Below are positions 38,806 through 56,505 of a stretch of 64,000 bases of DNA, one piece after another. The position numbers were made by a program, and so were the translations under genes. The notes beneath the pieces are model-generated. The model searched no databases. It was not told where the DNA came from and saw only the letters and a program-made list of their open reading frames with translations. Every line of letters begins with the position of its first letter. The first letter of the stretch is position 1. The stretch spans positions 1 through 64,000 of the forward strand of contig CP070233.1 of the NCBI GenBank assembly GCA_017355425.1. Direction: 5' to 3'. Origin of the DNA: Dolichospermum sp. DET69 (GTDB lineage: Bacteria; Cyanobacteriota; Cyanobacteriia; Cyanobacteriales; Nostocaceae).

Positions 38806-39231
38806 CTAGCGTAAACGTGGTTTAACAACAGGTTTGGGAATATTGTTCTCTCTTTCTTTCGACTTGGGTGGTAGTATCCGCTCTTCTTGTTCTTCATCAA
38901 AAGACGTACTATCCCGACTTTGGGAACTGGTTCCATAGATATCCAGGTATACTGATTGCCCAGCTAGTTCTGCTGCGGTGGCAATTACAGTGCGAATTGC
39001 CTGGATATTCCGTCCCCCTCGACCAAACACTTTTTCTTTATCTGTGCTGTTAAAAGCAATGCGAATCCAAATCCGGTTAAGGATTTGAGATACTTCACAA
39101 TCAACGCTTAAAGATTCTGGAGATTCTAAAAACGGTTGGACAAGAAACTGTACCAGCCCCACATAATTGGGACTGGTTGCTAGGGATTTAAGCTCAAAAC
39201 TATGATGCGGCTGTTGCACTGACCTGTTCAA
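38806..39231 (-). CDS. KH-domain RNA-binding protein (KhpA-like)
   Basis: The KH core spans about residues 26-105 ([21 protein letters not shown], then [18 protein letters not shown] with the GxxG loop in GRGGRN). The C-terminal tail is Glu/Lys/Pro-rich and disordered. The longest frame begins with TTG at 39231 and overlaps rpsP by 32 bases; GTG at 39219 is an alternative start with less overlap. Binds RNA; in other bacteria the small KH protein works with a partner in regulating translation and cell division. Coupled to rpsP. Confidence 0.88.
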
Positions 39232-39460
39232 AAACGTTAGCTTTTACGAGGATACTACGAACTGTATCGGTAGGTTGAGCGCCTTGTTGTAGTCGCTTAA
39301 CGATACCAGGAATGTCTAATTTTACTTCATCAGTTCTGGGGTTATAAAATCCTAGTTCTTCTAGGGGGCGGCCGTCACGACGAGCCAGACTGCTAATAGC
39401 AACAATCCGGTAACTTGCTTCGCGCTTTTTGCCAAATCTTTTTAAACGCAATTTGATCAT
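39200..39460 (-). CDS. rpsP: 30S ribosomal protein S16
   Basis: 86 residues with the S16 hallmarks: [37 protein letters not shown] and a C-terminal [18 protein letters not shown]. Small-subunit assembly protein. It heads rpsP-KH-phoH on the minus strand. From memory, ffh normally lies directly upstream of rpsP in cyanobacteria; here ffh is 12.6 kb upstream, separated by the cyanobactin island. Confidence 0.98.
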
Positions 39461-40333: not shown

Positions 40334-42466
40334 TTATTTCCGCACAGACCAAGAGCGAACTTGACCTAAAGTTACAGGAATTCTGTCACTAACATCAATG
40401 GTAAACAAAAACACCTTTTTAGCCCTGCTGCCATTTTCTGGGTCAAAAAACTTTAATTTCACATCCCAACAATCACTATTAATCCGACAAAAAGGACTTT
40501 TTTCCACTTCAATACTATCAAGCTGCATCCCTGTAGAAATAGCTTGAGAAAAACTAGAAGCAGCTTGAAAAGCATTAGTTACAGAAAAATTCAACGCTCG
40601 ATCTTTTGCCAATTGTCCTAAATTTTGCAAATCATAGTATACTCGATTTAAGAAACTACTCAAAGCCTTTCGCATGGCTATTTCTTGGGCTGGTGCAGTT
40701 TCTCCCGTAATTACAGTTTGCAAAGCCGCATCTACCAAACTATTGACTTTCCAGCCATACATTCCCCTAGTATTCGTAAGACTAATTACAGGCACAACTT
40801 GACCAGAAAATAACTCCACTGTTCTATCTGTTAACCTTGCAGGTATACTTACCCGTTCCACAAAATCATCACTGTTTTCTGGTTGAATTTGTCCCTCTAA
40901 CATTAAAATCAGGATTTCATAGATATCTGCGGCAAAACCGCTTACAGGTTCTAAAGCATAAATAGGAGTTAATTCTTGGTTGAGAGTCCAAATTAAAGGT
41001 TTAGCTTCCGTAGGATTTACTGACAAGTAATCAACCATTTGTCGGCTATCATAGGGATTAGCAGGGATAATTGCCCCGTCCATATTCACTGCTGGCATTA
41101 ACTGTTTAAAGGTGTCCCTTCTGGCTTCATTACCAAAATCATAACCAATAGTTCCTAAAGCATATACCAATTTAGAAGCTGCACTAGGGGTAATAGAATC
41201 AGTTGAGGAATTAATTCCCTGGCTAATAACTAAAGTTTCTCGTTCCCAGTCTCCGGCTGGGAATGCCGTCTCCAAGGCTCTGCCTGACGGTATAGTGAGA
41301 GGCAGAGCCTCTAATGTAGCATTCCCAGGTAGAACCTGGGAACGAGAGATTCCTACTCCTCTCTCCTCGTAGGAGAGGGGTTGGGGGTGAGGTTCTTGCA
41401 CTCCCTGGTAGGAGAGGGGTTGGGGGTGAGGTTCTAACCTTTCTCCCGTCAATAATTGAAACGCACCGGGAATATTCAACTTACCTAATAAACAGCGTTC
41501 TGGTTCTTCCACCTCTTCCGGGTTACAGGGAATAGCACTATTTAAAATTGCTTGACGCACTGCTTCAGCGTTGGGTTGTTCTCCTCGTTGCAATTGCAGA
41601 CTCATTAATAAGGCAGAAATACCTGTGACAATGGGTGCAGCGCAACTTGTCCCTTTTTCTCTGATAGGTTCTTCTGTTCCCGGTTGGGCGCCTAAAATGT
41701 TTTCACCGTTGGCCATTACCCCTTTATTTTGATATTCTCCGCCATAATTACTAAATTTAAACGGTTGGCCATCATCTCGCATTGCACCCACTGTAATCAC
41801 ACCAGGAAGAATAGAGGGAATACACCAACATTCACCTTTATCATTACCACCTGGGGCAACAATTAACATATTGTTATCTTGGCATTGTTTCACAGCACGG
41901 GCAAATAAATCTGGTGCTACTCCGGTTTGGGTGGGGTGACAAGCAGCAATATGAATCAGATTTGCTCCCCATTTCAAAGCCGTATTAATAGCATGAGTAA
42001 GGTTGACGGGGGAAATAAAATCATCACCAGCGAAGGAAATAGGAATATTTAATGCTGTACATAAAGGGGCAATACCAGGGGCAGGTGTGCCGTGTTGCCC
42101 TAAAATTGTGCTAGAAATGTGAGTAGCATGACCGGATAATTCAATGCGTTGTCTAATAGCTGGAGGGAAAGGTGCAAAAAATGCCTCCCGTTCTTTTTTT
42201 GCCTCTTCTTTATCGTGGTCGGGGTCGTCTTTTTTGTCTTTTTGTTGTTTGTTAAAATCTAAATATAAATTGAGATAATAATAGTATTCTTCGTTAAGTT
42301 CAATATCTTCTGCCCAATAGGGTTTAAATTGACTAAATTTTGCCCCTTGAAAACAACTGCGTTCTAAGTCGGCTGCACCATCAAGGATAGCAATTTTAAT
42401 GCGGGGGTCGCCTTTTGTGCGTGTCCAAATTTGGGAGATTCCGGGGATGTCGGTAAGGTTAGGCAT
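40334..42466 (-). CDS. Cyanobactin macrocyclase-type subtilisin-like protease, PatG/AcyG-like
   Basis: 710 residues. The N-terminal S8 domain has the triad Asp29 (ILDGAAD), His113 (SGHATH) and Ser274 (KGTSCAAP). A 60-residue charged insertion (about 50-108) sits between Asp and His, where PatG macrocyclases carry the capping helices that PatA lacks. The C-terminal domain (from 433, LVYALGTIGYDFG ... SPFCRINSDCWDVKLKFFD) is shared by PatA and PatG. No oxidase domain is present. Expected role: remove the follower and close the peptide ring. The linker (345-410) is made of in-frame dispersed repeats. Protein kinase or plain exported protease is less likely given the precursors nearby. Confidence 0.88.
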   Translation of the reverse strand: MPNLTDIPGISQIWTRTKGDPRIKIAILDGAADLERSCFQGAKFSQFKPYWAEDIELNEEYYYYLNLYLDFNKQQKDKKDDPDHDKEEAKKEREAFFAPFPPAIRQRIELSGHATHISSTILGQHGTPAPGIAPLCTALNIPISFAGDDFISPVNLTHAINTALKWGANLIHIAACHPTQTGVAPDLFARAVKQCQDNNMLIVAPGGNDKGECWCIPSILPGVITVGAMRDDGQPFKFSNYGGEYQNKGVMANGENILGAQPGTEEPIREKGTSCAAPIVTGISALLMSLQLQRGEQPNAEAVRQAILNSAIPCNPEEVEEPERCLLGKLNIPGAFQLLTGERLEPHPQPLSYQGVQEPHPQPLSYEERGVGISRSQVLPGNATLEALPLTIPSGRALETAFPAGDWERETLVISQGINSSTDSITPSAASKLVYALGTIGYDFGNEARRDTFKQLMPAVNMDGAIIPANPYDSRQMVDYLSVNPTEAKPLIWTLNQELTPIYALEPVSGFAADIYEILILMLEGQIQPENSDDFVERVSIPARLTDRTVELFSGQVVPVISLTNTRGMYGWKVNSLVDAALQTVITGETAPAQEIAMRKALSSFLNRVYYDLQNLGQLAKDRALNFSVTNAFQAASSFSQAISTGMQLDSIEVEKSPFCRINSDCWDVKLKFFDPENGSRAKKVFLFTIDVSDRIPVTLGQVRSWSVRK
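41240..41437. repeat. Dispersed repeats translated inside the macrocyclase linker
   Basis: Two repeat types are read in frame on the minus strand: EPHPQPLSY (twice, around 41345-41437, from GGAGAGGGGTTGGGGGTGAG) and SQVLPGNATLEALPLTIPSG with AFPAGDWERE (41240-41345), which contains the paired CGTTCCCAGTCTCCGGCTGG and CCAGGTAGAACCTGGGAACG arms. These are usually intergenic in cyanobacteria. Confidence 0.88.
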
Positions 42467-42535
42467 AGGTTTTGATTGTGTTATTGTAATTGATGTTATA
42501 ATTGTGGGTGAAAAGTCTAATTTTTTATAAAGTTA

Positions 42536-42952
42536 ATGCCAGCTAAAGATGTTTTTCATGATGCTGTTAGGATAGGGTTAGAAAAAGAAGGTTGGGTAAT
42601 TACAGATGATCCTTTAAGGATAGAAGTTGGTGATGTGGAAATGTATATTGATCTCGGTGCGGAACAAGTTTTAGCTGCTGAAAGAGAAGGAGAAAAAATA
42701 GCGGTGGAAATTAAGAGTTTTATTGGTACATCTAATATTTCTCAATTTCATCAAGCCATTGGACAATTTTTTAATTATCATTTGGCATTAGAAGAACAAC
42801 AACCAGAACGAGTTTTATATTTAGCTGTTCCTTCAGGAATTTATTACTCTTTCTTTCAATTGCAGTTTATTAAAACAGTTGTTCAGCGTTCCCAACTTAA
42901 AATCATGATTTATGATCCAGTTCAGGAGGTAATTGTAGCATGGAAAAACTAG
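42536..42952 (+). CDS. xisH: XisH family protein (fdxN element excision controlling factor)
   Basis: 138 residues beginning MPAKDVFHDAVRIGLEKEGW, with VEIKSFIGTSNISQFHQAIGQFFNY, the family hallmark. XisH resembles PD-(D/E)XK endonucleases (EIK motif). In Anabaena, XisH and XisI control excision of the fdxN element in heterocysts, but most homologues sit away from any such element, as here. Overlaps xisI by 13 bases, so the two are translated together. Why it lies inside a RiPP island is unclear; XisH/XisI pairs behave like accessory or addiction-like genes. Confidence 0.94.
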   Translation: MPAKDVFHDAVRIGLEKEGWVITDDPLRIEVGDVEMYIDLGAEQVLAAEREGEKIAVEIKSFIGTSNISQFHQAIGQFFNYHLALEEQQPERVLYLAVPSGIYYSFFQLQFIKTVVQRSQLKIMIYDPVQEVIVAWKN

Positions 42953-43275
42953 AACAATATCGCAATTATGTCAAACAAGTGATCACAGAATATGCTCAAT
43001 TAGGTTCAGCTAAAGATGAAATTGAACAACAATTGATTTTTGATACTTTTAGTGATCATTATCAATTAATGTATGTGGGTTGGAAAAATAGAAAACGGCA
43101 GCATGGTTGTGTTTTGCATTTAGATATTAAAGATCAGAAAATTTGGATACAACATGATGGAACTGAAATTGGTATAGCAGATGAGTTAGTTAAATTAGGA
43201 GTGCCAAAATCAGATATTGTTTTAGCATTTCATGAACCTTTAGTGAGACAATATACAGATTTTGCTGTTGGTTGA
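42940..43275 (+). CDS. xisI: XisI family protein (fdxN element excision controlling factor)
   Basis: 111 residues with the family pattern MEKLEQYRNYVKQVITEY, YQLMYVGW, RQHGCVLHLDIKDQKIWIQHDGTE and LAFHEPLVRQYTDFAVG. Always the partner of XisH; the 13-base overlap couples translation. The pair is complete here. No xisF or fdxN element ends are visible. Confidence 0.95.
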   Translation: MEKLEQYRNYVKQVITEYAQLGSAKDEIEQQLIFDTFSDHYQLMYVGWKNRKRQHGCVLHLDIKDQKIWIQHDGTEIGIADELVKLGVPKSDIVLAFHEPLVRQYTDFAVG

Positions 43276-43317
43276 TTTTCACATAAATTTTACATATTTT
43301 TTGGAAATATTTACATT

Positions 43318-43923
43318 ATGTCATACAGTGATTTTACTCTCAAAAAAGTTAAGCAAACCTTTGGCATAAATACCGTTGAAAATAAAAAGTTTCTGCCAGA
43401 AATCCAACCAATTGCTGCTAGTGCAACCCTGACTGATTTTTTAGCAGAAAGTTTGCCATTAGCTATAGCGACGGGAAGTGAAAAAGCTCGTTCTGAATTA
43501 ATCATTAGTCCGGTTTTACTAGAAGTACGTAAGATTTTAGAAAGAAAAATTAGTCTATTCTCTGGTGCGGATTTTACTGTAGATTCGGCTTTAGGATTGA
43601 ATGGAGTTTGTGATTTTGTTCTCAGTCTTTCAGCAGAACAGTTAGAAGTTGAAGCACCAGCAGTTATGATTGTGGAAGCTAAAAAATCAGACTTAAATCC
43701 GGGTATTGGCCAGTGTATTGCGGAAATGATTGCTGCTCAAAAATTTAATGAAATTAATAATCAATCTATTCCTACAATTTATGGTAGTGTGACTAATGGT
43801 ACTGTTTGGCGATTTCTACAATTAACCGAACAAACTGTAACAATTGATTTTACAGATTATTCACTTCCTCCTGTTGATGTCATTTTAGGAATTTTAGTTT
43901 GGATGGTAACTTCTCGTAATTAA
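43318..43923 (+). CDS. Predicted PD-(D/E)XK nuclease-like protein
   Basis: 201 residues, family not recognised by name, but common in cyanobacteria. Candidate catalytic residues are Glu60 (SELIISPVLLEVRK), Asp99 (GVCDFVLS) and Glu120-x-Lys122 (IVEAKKSD), in the order and spacing of PD-(D/E)XK restriction-like folds; QCIAEMIAAQKFNE follows as the usual helix. It is 42 bases after xisI in the same direction and may be in the same transcript. Activity is unproven. Confidence 0.7.
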   Translation: MSYSDFTLKKVKQTFGINTVENKKFLPEIQPIAASATLTDFLAESLPLAIATGSEKARSELIISPVLLEVRKILERKISLFSGADFTVDSALGLNGVCDFVLSLSAEQLEVEAPAVMIVEAKKSDLNPGIGQCIAEMIAAQKFNEINNQSIPTIYGSVTNGTVWRFLQLTEQTVTIDFTDYSLPPVDVILGILVWMVTSRN

Positions 43924-43928
43924 ATAAT

Positions 43929-44444
43929 TGTCTGAATCAGGATGTCCAGGATTTAAGGATTTACAGGATGTTACCCAACATTTCGGTGATTTTGTGATTT
44001 AATTTTGTTGGGTTGCGCTGTCGCTTAACCCAACCTACATCTACTGTATTCATCCTGTTCATCCTTTAATCCTGGATATCCTGATTCTGACACTTTTTGG
44101 CGTATGGTTTCAGATAGAGAACTCATGGTGATAAAGGAGTTTTTATTCCCCGTTTAACAGCTTCGGCTAAACCTTCAGATTTTCTTAATTGTCCCATTTG
44201 ATAAAGGGATATTAAAATTAATAATTCATAACGTTCGACAGAAGCAGCTAAACTTTCGGGTAAGTTAATAGTTATGGGAATTGTCATAAAAATAAAATTC
44301 TTTATTACAATTACAGTTTAGATGATGAAATTGTCTGAATCAGGATATCCAGGATATCCAGGATTTACAGGATGTTACCCAACATTTCGGTGATTTCGTG
44401 ATTTAATTTTGTTGGGTTGCGCTGTCGCTTAACCCAACCTACAT
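43929..44444. repeat. 115-bp direct repeats flanking a small ORF
   Basis: Copies at 43929-44043 and 44331-44444 run from TTGTCTGAATCAGGATRTCC through ACAGGATGTTACCCAACATT to GTTGGGTTGCGCTGTCGC and AACCCAACCTACAT. The 54-residue ORF on the minus strand (44123-44287) lies between them. The region 44288-44761 contains otherwise only the second copy and sequence next to the precursor repeats. Confidence 0.93.
44123..44287 (-). CDS. Small antitoxin-like protein
   Basis: 54 residues: MTIPITINLPESLAASVERY followed by ELLILISLYQMGQLRKSEGL and AEAVKRGIK. The beta-strand then helix layout (short ribbon followed by alpha helix) is that of ribbon-helix-helix or UPF0175-like antitoxins. There is no toxin gene next to it. 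It lies between two 115-bp direct repeats. I cannot name the family with certainty; expression is not shown. Confidence 0.5.
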   Translation of the reverse strand: MTIPITINLPESLAASVERYELLILISLYQMGQLRKSEGLAEAVKRGIKTPLSP

Positions 44445-44761
44445 CTTTTTTACGACTGGGAAACAGCTTAGAAGAATGTGCCAAAAAGTATAAAGGCTTC
44501 TGCCAAAAGTATAAACCCAAGGAGAAGAACCCAAGCCAATGCCACTGGGGTAGTAAGCTGTTGGCTGGGGTTCATCTCACAAATCAGGGTTCAACCACTA
44601 ACCCTAAAAAATCCAAGTCCGGTTTTCCACCTCCCCCGTGCCAGTGATAAACCCCCGAACTGACAGAGGTTGTCCGTCAATTCATCGAGGCAAACCGTGC
44701 GCCAAGGGATGTAGAAATAGACTTTTGATATTTTTTGAGGTGAGTGGTAGAATGGGGTGAC

Positions 44762-44917
44762 TTACTCCGCGTCGTCGCCCGCAAAAGGATTTTCATTTAC
44801 ATATCCCTTATATATATAATATAGGGCTGTAACCTGACCGCTTTGATCCTTAGCGGTGGAGGTAGTTTCGCGTTCTACGGGAGCAACTTGTTGGGGGCGG
44901 ATGTTCTTCTTAGTCAT
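44762..44917 (-). CDS. Cyanobactin precursor peptide 1
   Basis: 51 residues: leader MTKKNIRPQQVAPVERET and onward to SGQVTA, then the variable segment LYYIYKGYVNENP, then FAGDDAE. The leader and follower match anacyclamide-type AcyE precursors. In cyanobactin biosynthesis PatA-type protease frees the core N-terminus and PatG-type protease removes the follower and cyclises. The core ends in Pro, as macrocyclases of this family prefer. It is the longest of the four cores (12-13 residues). There is no Cys, Ser or Thr in the core, so heterocycles are not expected. The AAAAGGAAAA ribosome-binding site lies upstream. Confidence 0.9.
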   Translation of the reverse strand: MTKKNIRPQQVAPVERETTSTAKDQSGQVTALYYIYKGYVNENPFAGDDAE

Positions 44918-45286
44918 GGTGTGTTTTCCTTTTTGTTTGTTCGTTTAACTTCTTCCTTGTGAAGAAGACTGGTTTGGTGAAGGCGTTAAATTGGTGTTGA
45001 AGGGTAATTTAACGAGTTGTCAATCACCAGAAGCTTTATATAAAACCTCTCTCCAAACCTCTCTCCTACAAGGAGAGAGGCTTTAAACTCTTTAAATTCT
45101 CAAGTTTTTTTCCTGTTCCCTCTCCTCTTAGGAGAGGGTTAGGGAGAGGTATCTTATCCCCCGTGCCAGTGATAAACCCCCGAACTGACAGAGGTTGTCC
45201 GTCAATTCATCGAGGCAAACCGTGCGCCAAGGGATGTAGAAATAGACTTTTGATATTTTTTGAGGTGAGTGGTAGAATGGGGTGAC

Positions 45287-45427
45287 TTACTCCGCGTCGT
45301 CGCCCGCAAAAGGAAGGTACCTCCTATTGATTTGGGCTGTAACCTGACCGCTTTGATCCTTGGCAGTAGAGATGGTTTCGCGTTCTACGGGAGCAACTTG
45401 TTGGGGGCGGATGTTCTTCTTAGTCAT
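45287..45427 (-). CDS. Cyanobactin precursor peptide 2
   Basis: 46 residues. Leader identical to copy 1 except Thr19 is Ile (RETIS). The variable segment after SGQVTA is QINRRYLP, a basic core of seven or eight residues, followed by FAGDDAE. The exact N-terminal cut (before or after Gln32) is uncertain. Same ribosome-binding site and 3' block as the other copies. Confidence 0.9.
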   Translation of the reverse strand: MTKKNIRPQQVAPVERETISTAKDQSGQVTAQINRRYLPFAGDDAE

Positions 45428-45796
45428 GGTGTGTTTTCCTTTTTGTTTGTTCGTTTAACTTCTTCCTGATGAAGAAGACTGGTTTGGTGAAGGCGTTAAA
45501 TTGGTGTTGAAGGGTAATTTAACGAGTTGTCATTCACCAGAAGCTTTATATAAAACCTCTCTCCAAACCTCTCTCCTACAAGGAGAGAGGCTTTAAACTC
45601 TTTAAATTCTCAAGTTTTTTTCCTGTTCCCTCTCCTCTTAGGAGAGGGTTAGGGAGAGGTATCTTATCCTTCGTGCCAGTGATAAACCCCCGAACTGACA
45701 GAGGTTGTCCGTCAATTCATCGAGGCAAACCGTGCGCCAAGGGATGTAGAAATAGACTTTTGATATTTTTTGAGGTGAGTGGTAGAATGGGGTGAC

Positions 45797-45940
45797 TTAC
45801 TCCGCGTCGTCGCCTGCAAAAGGATTTGGGAACCCAGGATAATATAGGGCTGTAACCTGACCGCTTTGATCGTTAGCAGTAGAGATGGTTTCGCGTTCTA
45901 CGGGAGCAACTTGTTGGGGGCGGATGTTCTTCTTAGTCAT
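45797..45940 (-). CDS. Cyanobactin precursor peptide 3
   Basis: 47 residues. The leader differs from copy 2 by Lys23 to Asn (TANDQ). The variable segment is LYYPGFPNP (eight or nine residues, aromatic and proline-rich), followed by FAGDDAE. The start ATG at 45940 is preceded by the same AAAAGGAAAACACACC leader. Confidence 0.9.
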   Translation of the reverse strand: MTKKNIRPQQVAPVERETISTANDQSGQVTALYYPGFPNPFAGDDAE

Positions 45941-46346
45941 GGTGTGTTTTCCTTTTTGTTTGTTCGTTTAACTTCTTCCTTGTGAAGAAGACTGGTTTGG
46001 TGAAGGCGTTAAATTGGTGTTGAAGGGTAATTTAACGAGTTGTCATTCACCAGAAGCTTTATATAAAACCTCTCTCCAAACCTCTCTCCTACAAGGAGAG
46101 AGGCTTTAAACTCTTTAAATTCTCAAGTTTTTTTCCTGTTCCCTCTCCTCTTACAAGTTTTTTTCCTGTTCCCTCTCCTCTTAGGAGAGGGTTAGGGAGA
46201 GGTATCTTAATTCACCTCCCCCGTGCCAGTGATAAACCCCCGAACTGACAAGGGTTGTCCGTCAATTCATCGAGGCAAACCGTGCGCCAAGGGATGTAGA
46301 AATAGACTTTTGACCTTTTTTGAGGTGAGTGGTAGAATGGGGTGAC

Positions 46347-46487
46347 TTACTCCGCGTCGTCGCCTGCAAAAGGAAGCCAGGGCCACGCTATAAGGGCTGT
46401 AACCTGACCGCTTTGATCCTTAGCTGTAGAGATGGTTTCGCGTTCAACGGGAGCAACTTGTTGGGGGCGGATGTTTTTCTTAGTCAT
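46347..46487 (-). CDS. Cyanobactin precursor peptide 4
   Basis: 46 residues; leader as in copy 2. The variable segment is LIAWPWLP (seven or eight residues, two Trp), followed by FAGDDAE. It is the outermost copy, nearest the divergent protease gene. A few synonymous changes in the leader (AAA for AAG, GTT for GTA) show that copies have begun to drift while the protein leader stayed constant. Tryptophans are prenylation targets in other cyanobactins, but no prenyltransferase gene is in this window. Confidence 0.9.
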   Translation of the reverse strand: MTKKNIRPQQVAPVERETISTAKDQSGQVTALIAWPWLPFAGDDAE

Positions 46488-47193
46488 GGTGTGTTTTCCT
46501 TTTTGTTTGTTCGTTTAACTTCTTCCTTATGAAGAAGACTGGTTTGGTGAAGGCGTTAAATTGGTGTTGAAGGGTAATTTAACGAGTTGTGATTCACCAG
46601 AAGCTTTATATAAAACCTGTCTCCTTGTAGGAGAGAGGCTTTAAACTCTTTAAATTCTCAAGTTTTTTTCCTGTTCCCTCTCCTCTTAGGAGAGGGTTAG
46701 GGAGAGGTAGAGTTTTAGTATTAACTAATGTGAATTTTTCAGAATAATCAATGCAACTCCCTACCATGAGATGATAAAAAGTGCAATTACTAATCAGTAG
46801 GCTAAGTGAAGCTACCCTGATTCTGATAGTACAGCCAATTATGATTCAACGCAAGACCTTATTAATAAAAATTACTTATAGTAAATCAGGTTGTTAACAC
46901 TCCTATTTGCTTGATATTTCCGTGAAGCGGAAATCACTATCTCCTCCCGTCAAGTATTTGTAAATACTGATTTTCATCCACAGCACAGGAGAAAATAAAC
47001 ACTTACCAAAACCGTTTTTTTTTTTGACATAAGAAAAAATTATATCAATTAAAATATGTAAATTGAGTTGACATTTCAGCCGAATGGTATGAGAATTACT
47101 TTTGTGTTCTAGAAGCACAATCGTAATAAAAATGTCATAAAATAGATATTTATGGCGCAAAATAGATGTTTAAGCAGATAATTAACAAATTAA
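46488..47193. promoter_or_regulatory. Divergent region between precursor genes and the split protease gene
   Basis: 706 bases. The first 220 are the upstream part of precursor module 4. The rest is AT-rich, with a hairpin TTTCCGTGAAGCGGAAA (46917-46933) and a T11 tract near 47017. It should hold promoters for both directions. The 85-residue minus-strand ORF at 46903-47160 has no coding features and is rejected. Confidence 0.5.
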
Positions 47194-48354
47194 ATGCCAA
47201 AATCCTCAATTGAAACGGAAATCCAGAAATTATGGAACTTGACACAGGGTGATTCACAAATATGTGTAGCTATACTCGACGGATTGGTTGATCAATCTCA
47301 TGATTGCTTAAATGCAGCAAATTTAACAAGATTGCCAACACTTATTCAGGGAGAAGCGACAGCTAATGGATCTATGTCTGGACATGGAACTCATGTAGCA
47401 AGCATCATATTTGGTCAACATAATTCCTCAGAATTACGGGGAATTGCTCCCCAATGTCGAGGGTTAATCGTCCCTATTTTTGGTGACAATAATAAGAAAC
47501 TTTCTCAACTAGACCTATCTCGTGCCATAGAACAAGCCGTCAATGCTGGAGCGGATATTATCAATGTCAGCGCTGGACAACTCACTGATAATGGTGAAGC
47601 AGAAGGCTGGTTAGATAGGGCTGTGCAACTATGCAAAGATCACAATGTTTTAATTGTGGCTGCTGCTGGTAATGATGGTTGCGAATGTTTGCACGTTCCT
47701 GCATCTTTACCCACCGTATTAGCAGTAGGGGCAATGAATGACCAAGGTAAACCCATAGACTTTAGTAACTGGGGGGAAAAATATCAAAACCAAGGCATTC
47801 TTGCACCGGGAGAAAACATTTTAGGGGCAAAACCGGGGGGAGGGACACAAAAACTCAGTGGTACTAGCTTTGCTACTCCTATTGTTTCCGGTGTCGCTGC
47901 TTTACTCCTAAGTCTGCAAGTTCAACGTGGTGAAAAACCCGACCCCGCTAAGGTGAGAGCGGTTTTATTAGAAACTGCTATACCTTGCACAGATAAGGAT
48001 ACAGACGATATTAGTCGCTGTTTATTAGGTAAATTAAATATTTCTGGTGCATTGCAATATTTTACAGGAGGAACAATGTCCGAAGAATTAGATACAGTAG
48101 AAACCGTTGACAGTATTGAAGCTGCTGGTTGCGGTTGTGCAGAGATTACAAATAGTGCTGAACCAGAACCCAACCCGGAAGAATTTATACCCCCTGAATT
48201 TTTCCCAGTAGTTCCTGCTGTGACAACTTCCGCACCTTTAACAAATTCATCCAATTCTCAATTTACTACCATGTCAAATCGTACATCTAATTACATTACT
48301 GCTAGTCAAGCACCCAGCGATCTCGCCACACTCTCTAATCTCAAAATAACGTAG
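47194..48354 (+). pseudogene. PatA/AcyA-like cyanobactin protease, N-terminal part (interrupted gene)
   Basis: 386 residues ending prematurely. S8 domain with triad Asp29 (AILDGLVD), His64 (SGHGTHV) and Ser225 (SGTSFATP), without the capping insertion, so it is of the N-terminal (PatA) protease type that cuts the leader from the core. After a linker (EAAGCGCAE, then Glu/Pro- and Ser/Thr-rich) the frame runs into an IS607-family element at about 48351 and stops at TAG (48352-48354). The protease domain itself is complete, so a truncated but active enzyme is possible. Confidence 0.88.
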
Positions 48355-48385
48355 TATACTGGGGTTAATCGTATTTAACCGAAAG

Positions 48386-48994
48386 ATGAAATACCTAACC
48401 CCAGAACAAGTTTATAAACAGTTCGGCTATCACCCTAAGACGACGGCAGAATGGGCTGACTTAGGGAAAATAGAATGTATCCGTTCCCCTGGTGGACATC
48501 GAAGATATCCAGAATCAGCGTTTATAAAAACAGTCTCAACGGATAAAGAGCGGGTTCTTTACGCCCGTGTCAGCACAAAAACCCAGTTGTTAGACCTTGA
48601 CACACAAATAGAATTTTTAGGTAAAACCTACCCAGGATGTCGAGTCGTCAAGGATGTGGCTAGTGGCATGAATTGGAAGCGGAAAAACTTTCTTAAATTA
48701 ATGACTCAAGTTGCCCAGAATCAAATCTCTGAAATTGTCGTAGGGCATAAAGACAGATTATGCAGATTTGGATTTGAGTTCGTTGAGTGGTTTTGCAACC
48801 TTCACAGCTGCAAAATTGTTGTGGTAAACAATGCCAAGTTATCACCACACGAAGAGTTAATGCAGGACTTTATGGCTATCATGCACTGCTTTTCCTCCAA
48901 ACTTTACTTCCTTCGGGCTTACAAGAAAAAAATAGCCGAAGAGCAAAATATTCATGAAACAAATAGTAGTCAATACGAGTCAATGGGTGTATAG
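48386..48994 (+). CDS. tnpA: IS607-family serine recombinase TnpA
   Basis: 202 residues. N-terminal MerR-like helix-turn-helix (LTPEQVYKQFGYHPKTTAEW, then IRSPGGHRRYPES) followed by the small serine-recombinase domain with nucleophile Ser63 in YARVSTKTQ and the motifs GHKDRLCRFGFEF. This N-terminal DNA-binding order is diagnostic of IS607. Intact, so the element could be mobile. The start lies 35 bases from the left end of the element. Confidence 0.95.
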   Translation: MKYLTPEQVYKQFGYHPKTTAEWADLGKIECIRSPGGHRRYPESAFIKTVSTDKERVLYARVSTKTQLLDLDTQIEFLGKTYPGCRVVKDVASGMNWKRKNFLKLMTQVAQNQISEIVVGHKDRLCRFGFEFVEWFCNLHSCKIVVVNNAKLSPHEELMQDFMAIMHCFSSKLYFLRAYKKKIAEEQNIHETNSSQYESMGV

Positions 48995-49021
48995 TAGTAA
49001 AAGACGTAGTAAGCCAAACTC

Positions 49022-50503
49022 ATGAAACTCAAGGTAAAGAATCAGTTAACCGTTACGAGAATCGCTATTTTAGGAACTGAAAAACTAAATAACTGGAAAT
49101 CTAACGAGCTTGATTTGATCGCTTTGAGCTTGGGTAAACTACGCTCTGACCTGTGGAACGAGTTCGGGTCGTTGAAAGCCTGGGGTGTTTCTAAATTTGA
49201 GATTGACAAACAGCTACGCACCTTAAAAGACAAATATCAATTACCTGCTAAGTTATGGGAAGCGACTCTCTATGACGTAATTGATGATATTCATTTAGTT
49301 CAGGCTGCTTGTGTTGAGAAGGTGATAAAATCTTTGGGGCAATCGTTCCAGTCTTTTCAGGCTAAAAAAGGAGTTTTACAACTTACCTTAGAAAGTCGGG
49401 AATGGTTGGAACATCCCAAACTTTGCACCTTAGTTAGAAAGTTTTGGTATCGAGGACACACGAAAGTTTGTAACCAAATTATTGTAAAGGCTTATGATAC
49501 TAAAACAGATGATAAAGGTGTGGTGTGGTTGCGTTTTGGAGGTTTAACTCCATGTAAAACTCTCAAACTACCAACGACTTTACCAACAGAAATCAAGTGT
49601 CAGATAAGGCTAATTAAGCGTAATAGTAGATGGCAAATACATTACACAACTGACATCCAAAAAGCTGAAAAAAAGACCGAGGGTAAAATAATTGGATGTG
49701 ATAGAGGTTACACCGAAGTTTATGCCACATCTTCTAACGATGGCGCTAGATTTTTAGGTAATGACTTTGGTAAAATCCAAACTCAAGAAACCGATTACAG
49801 AACAGCGAAACAAGTTAAACGTAATAAAATCAAGTCAGTTTTTAACAAGTCTACAGCTAAAGGAAATGGTGCTAAGGCTGATAGAATTAAACGGAATAAT
49901 CTTGGTAGAATCAAGTGGGACAATCGGGAAACATCCTTTAAAGGTAGGATTCAAACAATAGTTTTTACAGCTACGCATGACTTGATGACAGATGCGATCA
50001 AGGTAGCTTTTGAAGATTTGACGGAGCAAATAAAAGGCAAAAAGCCCATGAGAAAGCGCATGAAGAGAAATGTTTCTTCATGGTGCAAGGGGATAGTTGC
50101 GGATGCCCTCAAACAAGTTTCAACCCGTGTAGGTTGCACGGTTGTTAGTGTTAATTGTGCGTATACGTCACAACTTGACTCCAGATTTAGTACCTTAACG
50201 GGGACTAGAAATGGTGACAAGTTTACCGGACATGATGGGGTCGTGATGCACTCAGATACTAACGCTGCTGATAACGTTCTAGTAAGAATGGGTGACGTTG
50301 AAATCACTCGTTACATGAAACATTCAAACGTAAAAGTAATATTACTAGAACGAACTCAGAAGTTTCGGGAATCCCTAATAGTGGAGACTGAAGCGAAACC
50401 GGGCAAGGATAAGCCCCAGACTCTAGAACCTAAAAGCAAACTTGCGAACAAGGTCAATCAGAGAGCGAACTATAAGCAATTGACGTTGTTTGACCTTGGT
50501 TAA
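49022..50503 (+). CDS. tnpB: TnpB-family RNA-guided nuclease of IS607 type
   Basis: 493 residues. The RuvC-like residues are present: Asp227 (IIGCDRGYTEVY), Glu331 (VAFEDL) and Asp412 (HSDTNAADNVL). The CxxC zinc-finger between them is missing: in the expected place (SQLDSRFSTLTGTRNGDKF) only Cys379 is near. Known TnpB proteins use an omega-RNA transcribed from the gene end and right flank to cut DNA next to a target motif, favouring retention of the element. The stop is 4 bases from the right end, so the scaffold RNA must overlap the coding end. A basic C-terminal tail follows the catalytic domain. Confidence 0.92.
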   Translation: MKLKVKNQLTVTRIAILGTEKLNNWKSNELDLIALSLGKLRSDLWNEFGSLKAWGVSKFEIDKQLRTLKDKYQLPAKLWEATLYDVIDDIHLVQAACVEKVIKSLGQSFQSFQAKKGVLQLTLESREWLEHPKLCTLVRKFWYRGHTKVCNQIIVKAYDTKTDDKGVVWLRFGGLTPCKTLKLPTTLPTEIKCQIRLIKRNSRWQIHYTTDIQKAEKKTEGKIIGCDRGYTEVYATSSNDGARFLGNDFGKIQTQETDYRTAKQVKRNKIKSVFNKSTAKGNGAKADRIKRNNLGRIKWDNRETSFKGRIQTIVFTATHDLMTDAIKVAFEDLTEQIKGKKPMRKRMKRNVSSWCKGIVADALKQVSTRVGCTVVSVNCAYTSQLDSRFSTLTGTRNGDKFTGHDGVVMHSDTNAADNVLVRMGDVEITRYMKHSNVKVILLERTQKFRESLIVETEAKPGKDKPQTLEPKSKLANKVNQRANYKQLTLFDLG

Positions 50504-50507
50504 CTAC

Positions 50508-51366
50508 GTTATTTGTGTATCCCGAAGTTAACTTAGTGTATGCTTTAGGTACACTGGGTTACGATTTTGGTTCAGAAGCCAGAAGAGACTCTTTTAAACA
50601 ATTAATGCCGGGAGTACAAATAGACGGAACAGCGATTCCCGCTAACCCTTATGATGCGCGGCAGATGGTAGATTATTTAGGAGATAATCTTTCTGAGGCT
50701 AAGTCCTTAATTTGGACATTGAATTTAGAATTAACTCCTGTCTATGCAATTGAACCAGGTGGGGCTTTTGCGAGAGATGTTTATGGGATTTTACAAGAAT
50801 TATTATCGGGACAAATTCAAGCAGAAGACAGCGAGAATTATGTAGAGAGAGTCAGTATTCCCGGTATTTTATCGGGACGCAGTGTAAAACTATTTTCTGG
50901 TCAAGTTGTTCCTGTAATTGAAGTTCCCAACATTCGGGGAATGTATGGTTGGAAGGTTAACACCTTAGTTCAAGCTGCTATTCAGACAGTGCAAGCACAA
51001 GCTTCAGAAGCCCAAGAAGAGTCTATTCGTCGGACTTTGGGTAGTTTCCTCAGCCGCATTTATTATGATTTACGCAACTTGGGGACAACTTCCCAAGATA
51101 GGGCGTTGAATTTTGCCTCTACGAATGCTTTTCAAGCGGCTTCTACCTTTGCGGAAGCTGTGGCTACAGGTATGGAGTTGGATAGTATTACAGTGGAGAA
51201 AAGTCCTTTCTGTCGTTTAGATAGCGATTGTTGGGATGTAAAATTGAAGTTCTTTGACCCTGAAAATAGTCGTCGGGCGAAGAAGCTATTCCGGTTTACA
51301 ATTGATGTGAGTGATATTATTCCTGTTACTTTGGGCGAAGTCCGTTCTTGGTCTACTCCTTATTAA
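50508..51366 (+). pseudogene. PatA/AcyA-like protease, C-terminal part (interrupted gene)
   Basis: The separated C-terminal domain shared by PatA and PatG: VYALGTLGYDFGSEARRD at the start, DARQMVDYLG, VSIPGILSGRSVKLFSGQVV, RGMYGWKVN and SPFCRLDSDCWDVKLKFFD at the end. It has no start of its own except GTG at 50515. In frame with the N-terminal part once the IS607 element is removed. About 70 percent of positions resemble the domain in the macrocyclase by eye. Confidence 0.9.
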
Positions 51367-51424
51367 TATCTCACCTGGCGAATATAATTTACAGCCCCAA
51401 CAGCCCCGGCGAATAGAATTCGCG

Positions 51425-51535
51425 GCTACACAAACAAAGTCCACCTTCGTGGACTAAAAAACTAACTGTTTCAAACCTACGTAGGTAGGTTTCGCCTGTG
51501 TAGACGCGGTTTCTAACCGCCGATTTAATGTTAAT
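51425..51535. repeat. Dispersed repeat (CGCCTGTGTAGACGCGGTTTCT)
   Basis: GTCCACCTTCGTGGACT hairpin, CTACGTAGGTAGGTTTCGCC and GTGTAGACGCGGTTTCTAACC, GCCGATTTAATGTTA. Same block as 26715-26775. It separates the protease gene from the acyB-like gene. Confidence 0.85.
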
Positions 51536-51586
51536 TACTAATGTTGGTTGACATACGTCAACCCAACCTACAATCTAAAATTGATT

Positions 51587-51790
51587 ATGAGATTACCCAA
51601 ACTTTCCCCACCAGTAAAAAGACCGGATATTATTTATCCTCATCGTTCTGTTGATGTAATTCACGGTAGAGTCGAAGATTTAGTGAGCATTCGTATGGAT
51701 TTATTACATGGTGCTAATTATAATGACCCCGCTGCATTTCAAAATCGTAGTTATCAGCAAATTAAATCTTCTTGTAGTTGCATGATTTAG
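51587..51790 (+). CDS. PatB/AcyB-like small cyanobactin protein
   Basis: 67 residues from the ATG at 51587: MRLPKLSPPVKRPDIIYPHR, then SVDVIHGRVEDLVSI, a GANYNDPAAF segment and a Cys-rich end SSCSCMI. Cyanobactin loci contain two short conserved genes (PatB and PatC); size, order after the protease gene and direction fit this one as PatB/AcyB type. Biochemical role unknown even in studied systems. Assigned by context and general resemblance; no certainty about the family name. Confidence 0.68.
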   Translation: MRLPKLSPPVKRPDIIYPHRSVDVIHGRVEDLVSIRMDLLHGANYNDPAAFQNRSYQQIKSSCSCMI

Positions 51791-51804
51791 GAGTTATCAA
51801 TATT

Positions 51805-51993
51805 ATGAGTAAACAAAAGAAAACCCCCGCAAATTCTAGCGAACTAGAACCTAAACCACCAGCAGAAATTGAACGTAAATTATTATCTACTGGTTTGGAA
51901 GATTATGGTTTTTGGTCACAAGAAATGGCTAAACAAAAAGCCCAACAAACTGAACCTGATAAACCTTTTCGTCGTGGTCGGATTTGGTGTTAA
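51805..51993 (+). CDS. PatC/TenC-like small cyanobactin protein
   Basis: 62 residues from ATG at 51805: MSKQKKTPANSSELEPKPPA, then EIERKLLSTGLEDYGFWSQE, MAKQKAQQ and a basic end KPFRRGRIWC. AGGAGT (51788-51793) is a good ribosome-binding site. It starts 14 bases after the AcyB-like stop and so is in the same operon. Likely soluble, partly disordered, with a single C-terminal Cys. Function unknown. Confidence 0.68.
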   Translation: MSKQKKTPANSSELEPKPPAEIERKLLSTGLEDYGFWSQEMAKQKAQQTEPDKPFRRGRIWC

Positions 51994-52042: not shown

Positions 52043-53491
52043 CTAAAGAGTCCCAAAACCTTTTTTCTTTTTCTCCTTCTTTTTCTTCGCTGGTGGTGCG
52101 CCACCGGGATAACCGCGCCAGCCTGCTGCGGGACGATTACCACCCGCTGCTAAGGGATTACCACCGCCAAACATTCCTCCCATACCGGGAATGCCACCCT
52201 GTCCCATTTGCTGCATGAGCGATCGCATTTTTTGGAAATCCGCTACCAGTTTGCTTACATCCCCTTCTCTATAACCAGAACCAGAGGCTATTCTTCTTCT
52301 GCGACTGGGAGAACTCGATAATAAATCTGGATCACGGCGTTCTTTGCCTGTCATGGAATTAATCATGGCTTCACAGCGTTTTAGCTGGGTTTCTCCCTGC
52401 TTCAACTGGTCATCAGAAAGCTTATTCATGCCCGGAATCATCTTCATGATTCCCCCCAAAGAACCCATGTTTTTCAATAACCGCATTTGCTTGAGAAAGT
52501 CAGTAAAATCAAATTTCGCTGACAGGATTTTCTCCTGCATTTTCTCCGCATCTTCCAAATTTATTTCTTCTTGGGCTTTTTCTACTAAGGTGAGAACATC
52601 CCCCATGCCCAAAATCCGCGAAGCCATGCGGTCAGGATAAAACGGTTGTAGTGCTTCGACTTTTTCCCCCACACCCACAAATTTAATTGGCGCTCCGGAA
52701 ATTTGCCGGACTGACAACGCCGCACCACCCCGGCTATCGCCATCCATTTTAGTCAGGATTGCCCCAGTAATCCCAATTTGATCATGGAAGGTGCGAGTTA
52801 GATTTGCTGCCTCTTGACCCGTCATTGCGTCAACAACTAACAGGGTTTCATCGGGCTGGACTATTTCCTTGATGCGGGCTAATTCCGCCATCATATCTTC
52901 GTCTATTTGTAAGCGTCCGGCAGTATCAATAATTACTGTATTTATGCCTTCGGCTCTGGCACGTTCCACACCTTGACGGGCGATTTCTACGGGGTCAGCT
53001 TCAATTCCCAATTCAAAGACGGGGACATCAATTTGCTTACCCAGGGTAAGTAACTGGTCAATAGCTGCGGGACGGTAAATATCTGTAGCCACTAGCAAAC
53101 AACTACGGTCTTGTTTGCGTAAATGCAAAGCTAATTTAGCGGTGGCTGTGGTTTTCCCTGTCCCTTGCAAACCAGCCATTAAGATCACGGTGGTCTTACC
53201 TACATTTTCTGCAAGGGGAACATTTTCTTCCCCCATGATTTGCACTAATTCATCATGAACAATTTTGATGAACTGTTGGTCAGGACGCACACCGGCGATA
53301 ACTTCGGCTCCCTGGGCTTTGGTTTCGACTTCGCTAATAAAATCTTTGACTACCTGGAGGTTAACATCTGCCTCCAACAAAGCCCGACGCACTTCCCGCA
53401 AAGCGTCTTGAATGTTGGATTGGGAGATTTTATCCTGTCCTCGGATTTTTTTCCAGGCGGATTCTAAGCGGTCAGATAGTGCATCAAACAT
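52043..53491 (-). CDS. ffh: Signal recognition particle protein Ffh
   Basis: GTPase of the signal recognition particle, which binds signal sequences and 4.5S RNA and targets membrane proteins. 482 residues: N domain (1-~85), G domain with GLQGTGKTT, DTAGR and TKMDGD, and the C-terminal Met-rich M domain (from ~325; MKMIPGMNKL ... MQQMGQGGIPGMGG). The C-terminal tail is Gly/Met/Lys-rich and ends in KKKKEKKKKGFG. In several cyanobacteria it directly precedes rpsP; here the cyanobactin island separates them. Confidence 0.98.
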   Translation of the reverse strand: MFDALSDRLESAWKKIRGQDKISQSNIQDALREVRRALLEADVNLQVVKDFISEVETKAQGAEVIAGVRPDQQFIKIVHDELVQIMGEENVPLAENVGKTTVILMAGLQGTGKTTATAKLALHLRKQDRSCLLVATDIYRPAAIDQLLTLGKQIDVPVFELGIEADPVEIARQGVERARAEGINTVIIDTAGRLQIDEDMMAELARIKEIVQPDETLLVVDAMTGQEAANLTRTFHDQIGITGAILTKMDGDSRGGAALSVRQISGAPIKFVGVGEKVEALQPFYPDRMASRILGMGDVLTLVEKAQEEINLEDAEKMQEKILSAKFDFTDFLKQMRLLKNMGSLGGIMKMIPGMNKLSDDQLKQGETQLKRCEAMINSMTGKERRDPDLLSSSPSRRRRIASGSGYREGDVSKLVADFQKMRSLMQQMGQGGIPGMGGMFGGGNPLAAGGNRPAAGWRGYPGGAPPAKKKKEKKKKGFGTL

Positions 53492-54626: not shown

Positions 54627-56093
54627 CTATGTCCTATTCTGTATCCGGTGCTGCTGAACTTTTTCATCTATGTGGCGCAATATATTGGCACTAAGCGCGT
54701 AAGCATACAAACTTGCTGGCTCAAATTTAAACTGAACTCCTTTATACATAAAATTTTCATCCGCAATAGTTCGACTTGTAATTTTAATGGGCTGAATTAT
54801 GCTTTTATTTTTCTTGATAAATTCTATGCAATTATCAAGCTCAGAGTGAGACTTATAGGGTCTGTCACTCCACTTAACTTCAACTAGCCATGAGGGTAAC
54901 TGGTCTACGAGATTCAAGTGGACAATATCAATTTCTCCCGAATTCCAGCGTGCATAATAAAGTTCAGTAGTCATACTGTGTTGCCACTGACTAAAAATAG
55001 CAGTTTCAGTCATTGCACCCATTGCCTCAGAATCTGCCTGAAGTTGTCCAAATAATGCGGCTCGCATGGACGGATTAGTTAAATAAACCTTAAAGTACAA
55101 AGCCCTCTTAAATCTCTTAGCATTTTGGTCAATTCTCTCAACACGCCGAATTAAAAACGCGGCTTCAAGGTATTCTAGATAACGCTTAATAGTATTCTTA
55201 GCTACGCCAGAAGATTGAGACAATCCCTCTAAATTAACTTCATTACCGGAATTGTATGCCAAGGTAGTAAAAAGCCTGTTCAATTCTTGAATATCATTAA
55301 TACCATAAAGACTTGGCAAATCACGCAATAGCACTTTGTCAATAATATCACTTTTAATATACTGTCCAGGATCTTGGCGGATAGTTTCTGAAAAAACCGC
55401 TTCTGGGTATCCACCAAAATTCAGGTAGTTAACAAACTCTTCATTGAGTGCCTCAATATTGGAGGCAGAATATTTATAGGTATCAAAAGGTTCTTTAGGT
55501 GATGTAGCCGTTATCAGTTCATTTTCTCGACCAATAAACATCAAGTATTCAGCAAAAGTTAATGGTGGCAGAATATAATCACTGAATCTACCAGCACCAG
55601 ATTCTATACTCTTTAATCGTAGTGCAGCAGCAGAGCCAGTAGCAATAAAACGGTAATCGGCAAAGGAGTCAACTAGAGATTTCAGGTGTACTTCCCAATT
55701 ACGAAAGTATTGAATCTCGTCGAAAAATACAAATAGCTGGGAATCGCGTTTATGATTGAATAGCTCTTGAAAGTAACTAAGTATTTTTTCTAGTGGAAGT
55801 CCGGTATAAATGGGGGTTTCAAGGGAGAGATATAAGATCCTCTTTTCATCAATACCAGAGTTCAATAGTTCGCGGACACTGTGATAGACCATAACAGTCT
55901 TACCGACGCGCCTGGGTCCCATCAAGACAATCGCTCGACGAACACTCACATCCAAAATTTTCTGATAAAAAGGCTCAAAATATTTTCGTCGAGGGGTATT
56001 CTCATAAGCAATTTTCCCCTTTTCACCTTGCTCCCACCAAGGGTTATCAAATTCAAGGCGCGATAAGATATCCTTTTTCGCAATTTCCAGCAT
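54627..56093 (-). CDS. AAA ATPase with DUF4143 domain
   Basis: 488 residues. N-terminal AAA_14 ATPase (Walker A MGPRRVGKTV near residue 60, Walker B QLFVFFDEIQYF near 120) and C-terminal DUF4143 domain (from ~215) with a PD-(D/E)XK-like end (DIVHLN ... SWLVEVKWSDR). Widespread, of unknown function, often strain-variable. It lies between two toxin-antitoxin modules. Complete and with a regular start at ATG 56093. Confidence 0.92.
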   Translation of the reverse strand: MLEIAKKDILSRLEFDNPWWEQGEKGKIAYENTPRRKYFEPFYQKILDVSVRRAIVLMGPRRVGKTVMVYHSVRELLNSGIDEKRILYLSLETPIYTGLPLEKILSYFQELFNHKRDSQLFVFFDEIQYFRNWEVHLKSLVDSFADYRFIATGSAAALRLKSIESGAGRFSDYILPPLTFAEYLMFIGRENELITATSPKEPFDTYKYSASNIEALNEEFVNYLNFGGYPEAVFSETIRQDPGQYIKSDIIDKVLLRDLPSLYGINDIQELNRLFTTLAYNSGNEVNLEGLSQSSGVAKNTIKRYLEYLEAAFLIRRVERIDQNAKRFKRALYFKVYLTNPSMRAALFGQLQADSEAMGAMTETAIFSQWQHSMTTELYYARWNSGEIDIVHLNLVDQLPSWLVEVKWSDRPYKSHSELDNCIEFIKKNKSIIQPIKITSRTIADENFMYKGVQFKFEPASLYAYALSANILRHIDEKVQQHRIQNRT

Positions 56094-56187: not shown

Positions 56188-56505
56188 GCCGGTAAGCGTA
56201 AAACTCAGCGGCTTTAGCCCTGAGATGTCAGTAACCCAGCCCTAAAGGGACTGAGCTTGCAAGAGAAATCAAACAAGCTGTACTGGACCACCTAGAAATA
56301 GGTAGCCGTTATTTGAGTCACGACACCCACCGAATGCGTTCGCGCCAGCGTGCCGTCAGGCATAGCTAGTTCCCTGCTCTGTCATTTGCAATTAAACAGT
56401 TTTAAGGTCACTGAAACAGTGTTGCAAGTATAACAAGCTCTTATAACGCAGTCGTTGCTAACATCACCCCAGAAATGGGAGTTGGTTTTTCAGGTTTCCA
56501 ATCAA
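56188..56505 (+). mobile_element. IS200/IS605 left-end remnant
   Basis: CGGTAAGCGTAAAACTCAGCG with a hairpin CTCAGCGGCTTTAGCCCTGAG (56201-56221) and ATGTCAG, the same left-end signature as at 39739. It is followed by CCCAGCCCTAAAGGGACTGAG and a sequence up to about 56380 resembling the leader before tnpB. No tnpB is left. Confidence 0.6.

Follow-up and report, generated by a model that had tools for sequence, protein, structure and literature searches.

Four tandem precursor genes, a split leader protease gene and a recurrent promoter-like site in a probable anacyclamide-type cyanobactin cluster of Dolichospermum sp. DET69

The first 64,000 nucleotides of contig CP070233.1 of Dolichospermum sp. 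DET69 (assembly GCA_017355425.1), hereafter the window, contain four tandem cyanobactin precursor genes with a common leader and follower and different cores. How does such an array come to vary at its cores, can the enzymes encoded around it still process the precursors, and what is the promoter-like sequence that recurs beside each stop codon? Taken as a whole, the locus is best explained, and with good confidence, as an anacyclamide-type cyanobactin island in an Anabaena/Dolichospermum-type genome. A preliminary description of this DNA, made from its letters, had proposed the same type, and the models for the precursors (TIGR04446) and for the A/G, B and C proteins are all matched.

The precursor array and the exchange of its cores

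The four precursors are ATG-initiated open reading frames (ORFs) on the minus strand, between 44762 and 46487, with lengths of 46, 47, 46 and 51 amino acids: the acyE1-like E1 (46347..46487, predicted core LIAWPWLP, TIGR04446 79.8 bits), the acyE2-like E2 (45797..45940, LYYPGFPNP, 76.4 bits), the acyE3-like E3 (45287..45427, QINRRYLP, 81.2 bits) and the acyE4-like E4 (44762..44917, LYYIYKGYVNENP, 83.7 bits). With E values of 8e-24 to 2e-21, all are above the 35-bit cut-off of TIGR04446, and the search of the 6.04 Mb genome with this model gave no precursor beyond them. The preliminary description was therefore right about four tandem precursors with a common leader and follower; its interval, 44636..46710, holds the precursors, but the full cluster extends over 40334-51993. 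Apart from I19T in E4 and K23N in E2 the leader protein is constant, and all four share the follower FAGDDAE. At the DNA level, 8 of 93 leader bases vary, spread over 8 codons and altering the amino acid in two, together with 1 of 24 follower bases. The modules follow each other with a period of 510-550 nt and are 97-100% identical, the exception being the upstream part of E1 (78%, ungapped). The cores measure 8, 9, 8 and 13 residues and every one closes with Pro, as had been pointed out; they had also been called unfamiliar, and none of the four predicted cores was found in the main texts of the literature searched.

The statement that the cores differ completely does not hold. Those of E2 and E4 have CTATATTAT in common at their starts and AATCCT at their ends, and are more alike than shuffled sequences (p 0.004); the remaining five pairs gave p ≥ 0.051. 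The first and last codons were removed before this test, as shared end codons bias the unstripped comparison. Among ten same-genus precursors (a second one from genome G007, truncated by a contig end, was excluded) 5 of 45 core pairs exceed the shuffles at 0.05, where 2.25 are expected, with E2/E4 the strongest.

Comparison with relatives locates the change more precisely. E3 and G010a, a precursor of another genome of the genus, differ at 0 of 258 bases (93/93 leader, 24/24 follower, 100/100 upstream, 41/41 downstream) around unrelated cores, QINRRYLP and RSWRDPSEDTFAP, and their wider flanks are 97.8% identical over 190 nt upstream and 98.5% over 130 nt downstream. Precursor G009b is identical to G010b across 130 downstream nt (leader 97.8%, upstream 83.6%) and resembles its own neighbour G009a upstream (98.4%), so that a breakpoint lies within the module, which is a mosaic. 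These comparisons lend support to a replacement of the core only, as far as the sequences can tell, and the near-constant flanks, the E3/G010a pair and the mosaic modules are in line with the earlier suggestion of duplication with change mostly limited to the core. In the model proposed here, cores would swap as units through recombination among strains, and leader, follower and flanks would be kept near constant by forces that presumably act on them. Core mutation in the style of diversity-generating retroelements was set aside because the cores are of unequal length. In a wider survey, TIGR04446 matches occur in 52 of 388 genomes of the order, with at least two in 30 and at least four in 14 of the 52 (fragments included).

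The DNA 3' of the precursors is also highly constant. Four 130-nt blocks (44632-44761, 45157-45286, 45667-45796 and 46217-46346) carry a near-invariant hairpin, GAATTGAC...GTCAGTTC, which is near-invariant too in the aligned ADA, Nostoc and Nodularia modules. A double change is found at 1 of its 23 pairs and the covariation term is +0.88 (unfavourable); the hairpin is therefore without covariation support. Strong folding (z -6.0) is seen in one intermodule region. The intermodule palindrome CCTCTCCCTAACCCTCTCC...GGAGAGGG was considered as an array-specific element and rejected: it has 11 copies in the genome (at most 2 mismatches), 4 of them in the array, and is thus a dispersed repeat.

A promoter-like site beyond the precursor stop codons

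A promoter scan gave 9 sites, against a shuffle mean of 4.1, and four of these lie on the plus strand at the same relative place, antisense to the 3' ends of E1 (46310..46338, TTGACC-N17-TAGAAT, with TG before the -10), E2 (45760..45788, TTGATA-N17-TAGAAT), E3 (45250..45278) and E4 (44725..44753). Each site consists, as in an extended -10 promoter, of a -35-like hexamer and TAGAAT separated by a 17-nt spacer, whose last three bases are TG and a free one, and ends 8 nt off the stop codon. All the elements of the promoter form (-35, spacing of 16-18, TGn, -10, fixed place) are thus found at 4/4 precursors of the window.

The site is not confined to this genome. In a search of 388 genomes with at most 2 mismatches, the 29-base pattern gave 47 hits, spread over 20 of them, and the reversed-pattern control 0; 17 of the 20 genomes also have TIGR04446 matches, an unlisted PFAGDDAE ORF lies at the site in G224, and none was seen at the site in G133 and G260. 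In the DET69 genome all four matches are those of E1-E4. The association with precursor ends is close: of 37 distinct sites examined with their DNA, 30 follow a precursor-type stop codon at a distance of exactly 8 nt and 7 do not, and 20 of 28 distinct precursors examined have a site at distance 8 with TG and a score of at least 9/12. The 8-nt gap between stop codon and site varies in sequence and rarely in length. Across families (12 precursors, 56 pairs), the element is 84% identical, third codon positions where the amino acid is shared 55% and the gap 41%, a result valid for element-bearing precursors only, since 9 of the 12 had been chosen for carrying it.

To these counts we add two samples defined by precursor family. 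For TIGR04446, 46 of 137 matches were taken (26 with loci and 20 picked from distant genomes), of which one, L055, was too short; in the other 45, the best antisense site is at distance 8 in 26 (21 unique, 5 tied) and only at distance 7 in 4 more. Among patellamide-type precursors (TIGR03678), from which L134 at a contig edge was excluded, 5/29 have the site, or 5/28 once L125, a copy of L124, is dropped, and their spacers are unrelated. At a score of at least 10/13 (TG counted as one) and a distance of 6-10, limits that were chosen after the motif had been seen, the site is found in 24/45 TIGR04446 precursors (9/27 nonredundant) and 5/28 TIGR03678 precursors (5/27), compared with 0/206 ends of other ORFs of at least 150 aa and 13/4120 shuffles. 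The Fisher p values are 1e-9 and 1.5e-5, respectively, for sequences that are related and limits set post hoc. Precursors with a site of this form belong to the anacyclamide/piricyclamide type and, in part, to the patellamide type, and come from several cyanobacterial families. In the literature on cyanobactins and antisense transcription, the accessible part of PMC3610870, which describes a Nodularia CCY9414 cluster without a precursor gene, reports no such promoter.

The processing enzymes and the interrupted acyA gene

The cluster sits between rpsP (39200-39460) and ffh (52043-53491). From 40334 onwards it comprises acyG (minus strand), xisH and an xisI-like ORF (plus), a 201-aa ORF and E4-E1 (minus), followed on the plus strand by the first part of acyA, the IS607 genes tnpA and tnpB, the second part of acyA, acyB (51548..51790, TIGR04220 135 bits) and acyC (51778..51993, TIGR04447 71.7 bits). 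The xisI-like ORF has no NCBIfam match, and we assume its name from its position.

The acyG-like gene (40334..42466, minus) encodes a macrocyclase of 710 aa with an S8 domain, a linker and PatG_D/PatG_C, and scores 886 bits with TIGR03895 (cut-off 421.05). Its top matches in the Protein Data Bank (PDB) are the PatG domain of unknown function (DUF), 4uvq, and the PatG macrocyclase, 4h6x/4aks. Asp29, His113 and Ser274 are present, and the gap between Asp and His is 84 residues, compared with 35 in AcyA; we take the longer gap to be the seat of the macrocyclase-specific insertion. The PatG-type macrocyclase expected from the Pro-ended cores is thus there. AcyG linkers vary in length among relatives, in part through repeats. 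The AcyG of G009 (Dolichospermum sp. LEGE 00240) is 1028 aa long and carries, in the linker between the S8 and PatG domains, a protein kinase domain (PF00069, E 3e-28), the frame being open throughout (L065:14837-17923, also in L012). The linker thus appears to tolerate inserts.

It had been assumed that both proteases are available, and here the picture changed: both domains of the PatA-type leader protease are present, but in two ORFs and not in a single gene, with acyA cut by an IS607-family element (48328..50521, plus). The S8 piece (47194..48354, plus; 378 native and 8 element-coded residues) covers TIGR03895 positions 1-327 and on its own stays just below the cut-off (413.1 vs 421.05 bits); its top PDB match is the N-terminal cyanobactin protease 4h6w (E 4e-146), and it retains Asp29-His64-Ser225. 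The C-terminal DUF piece (50515..51366, plus) covers positions 330-606 (543 bits) and matches the PatG DUF, 4uvq. The element encodes a serine resolvase-type IS607 transposase (48386..48994, plus; NF033518 167.6 bits, cut-off 110) and a TnpB-like protein (49022..50503, plus; guided_TnpB 89.9 bits, under the cut-off of 100). By separate alignment of each acyA flank to relatives, the insertion was placed in the linker between the two domains. CC is all that the junctions share (48326-48327 and 50522-50523), so that no long target duplication is present, and it corresponds to a single CC of the G005 gene, which has no insertion (L063 7251-7252); IS607 elements insert at a CC/GG dinucleotide. The gene is also uninterrupted in G009 and G010. 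The element occurs at five places in the genome, three at 100%, one at 99% and one at 94%, and since two further copies are identical to that in acyA the insertion is probably recent. The inserted length, 2196 bp, is a multiple of three; the first piece runs 27 nt into the element before ending, and the second begins with a GTG inside the right end of the element. Because this codon lies 11 nt past the tnpB stop codon, a translational restart is possible. An IStron, in which a group I intron would restore the message, was dropped, as 44300-51400 gave no Rfam match at E ≤1 and none at gathering level.

Prenylation and heterocyclization can be considered in the same way. A LynF/TruF/PatF prenyltransferase is usual, though not universal, in anacyclamide/piricyclamide-type clusters. 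The family search found no such gene in the DET69 genome, while the same search of 60 genomes, including this one, gave 8 positives, 6 of them above the cut-off, and no remnant of F was found in the window with the F proteins of four relatives as queries. Among precursor-bearing genomes of the genus, F is full in G007 and G010, a fragment in G009, and missing in DET69 and G005. The products should therefore be unprenylated, to judge from the gene content. AcyG contains S8 and PatG domains only, and no heterocyclase or oxidase domain was found in the main ORFs that lie from rpsP to ffh (the search for PatD did not extend to small ORFs or to the remainder of the genome). In the proposed pathway, AcyA would remove the leader by cleaving after about residue 31, and G would cut off FAGDDAE at Pro and then cyclize the core; the four products would be plain N-to-C macrocycles with predicted [M+H]+ of 977.56, 1049.51, 1041.60 and 1617.79. 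The IS607-TnpB insertion, probably a recent one, has parted A at the linker into a protease domain and a C-terminal domain.

Competing readings, related clusters and meaning

Tentatively, and with somewhat less than even confidence, we propose that cyanobactin precursor genes often hold a built-in antisense promoter at their own stop codon, from which an RNA complementary to the whole gene would be made, so that each tandem core would have its own core-specific antisense regulator, and that this cluster would in addition have a natural two-piece leader protease. The E1 copy faces acyA at about 850 nt and could instead be a candidate acyA promoter with a long leader over E1. Several points weigh against the promoter. 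The promoter score is not reached in 21/45 TIGR04446 and 23/28 TIGR03678 flanks; some relatives are without the A of the -10 (TTGAAT, TCGAAT, TCTAAT, TCTGAT); and in many TIGR04446 precursors conservation extends to the spacer (TTTTTGAGGTGAGTG) and past the -35. Conservation of the spacer and of what lies beyond the -35, loss of the key A and the near-invariant hairpin farther downstream would all suit a signal in the sense-strand 3' untranslated region, acting in stability, processing or protein binding, whose likeness to a promoter is incidental; we give that reading an even chance. It fits less well with the free base of TGN, which occurs as all four, with the -35/TG/-10 pattern kept around unrelated spacers in the patellamide-type L139, L140 and L142, and with the lack of the pattern at the control ORF ends.

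Other points weigh against the reading of the whole locus as a peptide-making cluster. The boundary between leader and core was placed from conservation alone; in five of the 16 same-genus genomes (G002, G003, G008, G011 and G015) the A/G-type genes are all truncated, or a single full gene stands next to a remnant, so that the DET69 cluster may be decaying too; and Microcystis NIES843, with a pirA gene interrupted by insertion sequences (IS), had no detected product (PMC3428304, as far as accessible). The remaining alternatives concern the peptides themselves. In one, the element has inactivated AcyA, leaders stay on the precursors, and the repertoire is a relic heading for loss. The split gene, the missing F and the A remnants of G002 and G015 would agree with this, as would the age of the insertion, since open reading frames do not prove function if it is recent, and NIES843, where pirG is frameshifted besides the interruption of pirA. 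However, the element sits between two domains, each with a homologue whose structure was determined on its own, the protease piece keeps its Asp, His and Ser, the frames of G and of all four precursors are open over their full length, and the NIES843 insertion sites differ from that in acyA (PMC3428304). We regard a silent cluster as a real possibility, if not quite an even one. Because the protease domains of PatA and PatG are described as active in isolation in the accessible text of PMC4259220, and with the NIES843 case on the other side, we lean slightly towards some leader cleavage being retained by the free AcyA protease domain, by analogy. As for the origin of the cores, ordinary duplication with point mutation and diversifying selection, and with no cassette exchange, would account for the likeness of E2 and E4 at both ends. 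It appears unlikely, as core length ranges over 8-13 residues in flanks that diverge by a few percent, unrelated cores stand beside near flanks without a single difference between strains, the G009/G010 modules are mosaic, and just 5/45 core pairs reach p 0.05. Exchange of whole cores among strains is thus the origin that we prefer.

The position of the cluster is shared with relatives. In G009 and G002 the cluster, or what is left of it, likewise lies between rpsP and ffh, and G007, G010 and G015 are consistent with this placement, with one neighbour only, or two contigs, visible. Precursors are present in 5 of 16 same-genus genomes (DET69, listed as G000, and G005, G007, G009 and G010), and the four others have 1-2 each. 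The ffh-side loci of G002 (L071) and G015 (L070), without TIGR04446 matches, have acyA as a C-terminal remnant, a full-length acyG and a retained prenyltransferase gene, 5'-truncated in G002. In G009, the 3' end of ffh (residues 387-482) is duplicated beyond acyG (L065:17942-18229) and a C-terminal acyG fragment lies close to rpsP, which suggests rearrangement at the island edge. In the window, direct repeats of 87 nt (99%) and 27 nt (96%) at 43926-44446 surround about 300 nt with a 54-aa ORF (44123-44287) that has no Pfam or NCBIfam match, and a HEARO RNA (RF02033, 91.8 bits) at 56227-56467 (plus) adjoins an AAA_14/DUF4143 ORF (54627-56093).

Among known systems, described here from the accessible parts of the cited papers, the acy clusters of Anabaena/Dolichospermum are alike in leader and follower, AcyG without oxidase, AcyA, AcyB, AcyC, bidirectional layout and the lack of a heterocyclase. 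They differ in having one precursor each (PMC4663559), compared with four here, where acyA is split by IS607, acyF was not found and the cores did not occur in the literature searched. The pir clusters of Microcystis have 2-4 precursors (pirE1-4) with a common leader and follower and hypervariable cores, and in NIES843 IS insertions in pirA (PMC3428304); in contrast to the present cluster, PirF is present, some products are prenylated or geranylated, and the NIES843 insertions are of another kind and position, with pirG frameshifted. The pag cluster of Planktothrix has seven precursors with differing cores and no heterocyclase domain (PMC4663559), but belongs to another genus and gives prenylated products. 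The sphaerocyclamide (sph) cluster is anacyclamide-like, and its published primers match the conserved precursor flanks by eye with at most one mismatch each; it differs by the one precursor reported, by SphF and by a prenylated product (PMC6162287).

Hypervariable cores within constant flanks have thus been described before (PMC4663559, PMC3428304, PMC6162287), and a tandem array of four such precursors follows an established pattern and is not in itself new; the new leads from this sequence are the transposon-split AcyA and the antisense promoter-like site that recurs at the stop codons of precursors. Through the array, a known family gains four predicted macrocycles that are new. The accessible text of PMC4259220 poses the puzzle of why the C-terminal DUF is conserved throughout cyanobactin pathways though the protease domains work without it, and for this puzzle the split acyA offers a natural experiment. 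If transcribed, the antisense site would be a regulatory device common to cyanobactin precursors, and could explain the choice of core in strains with many precursors.

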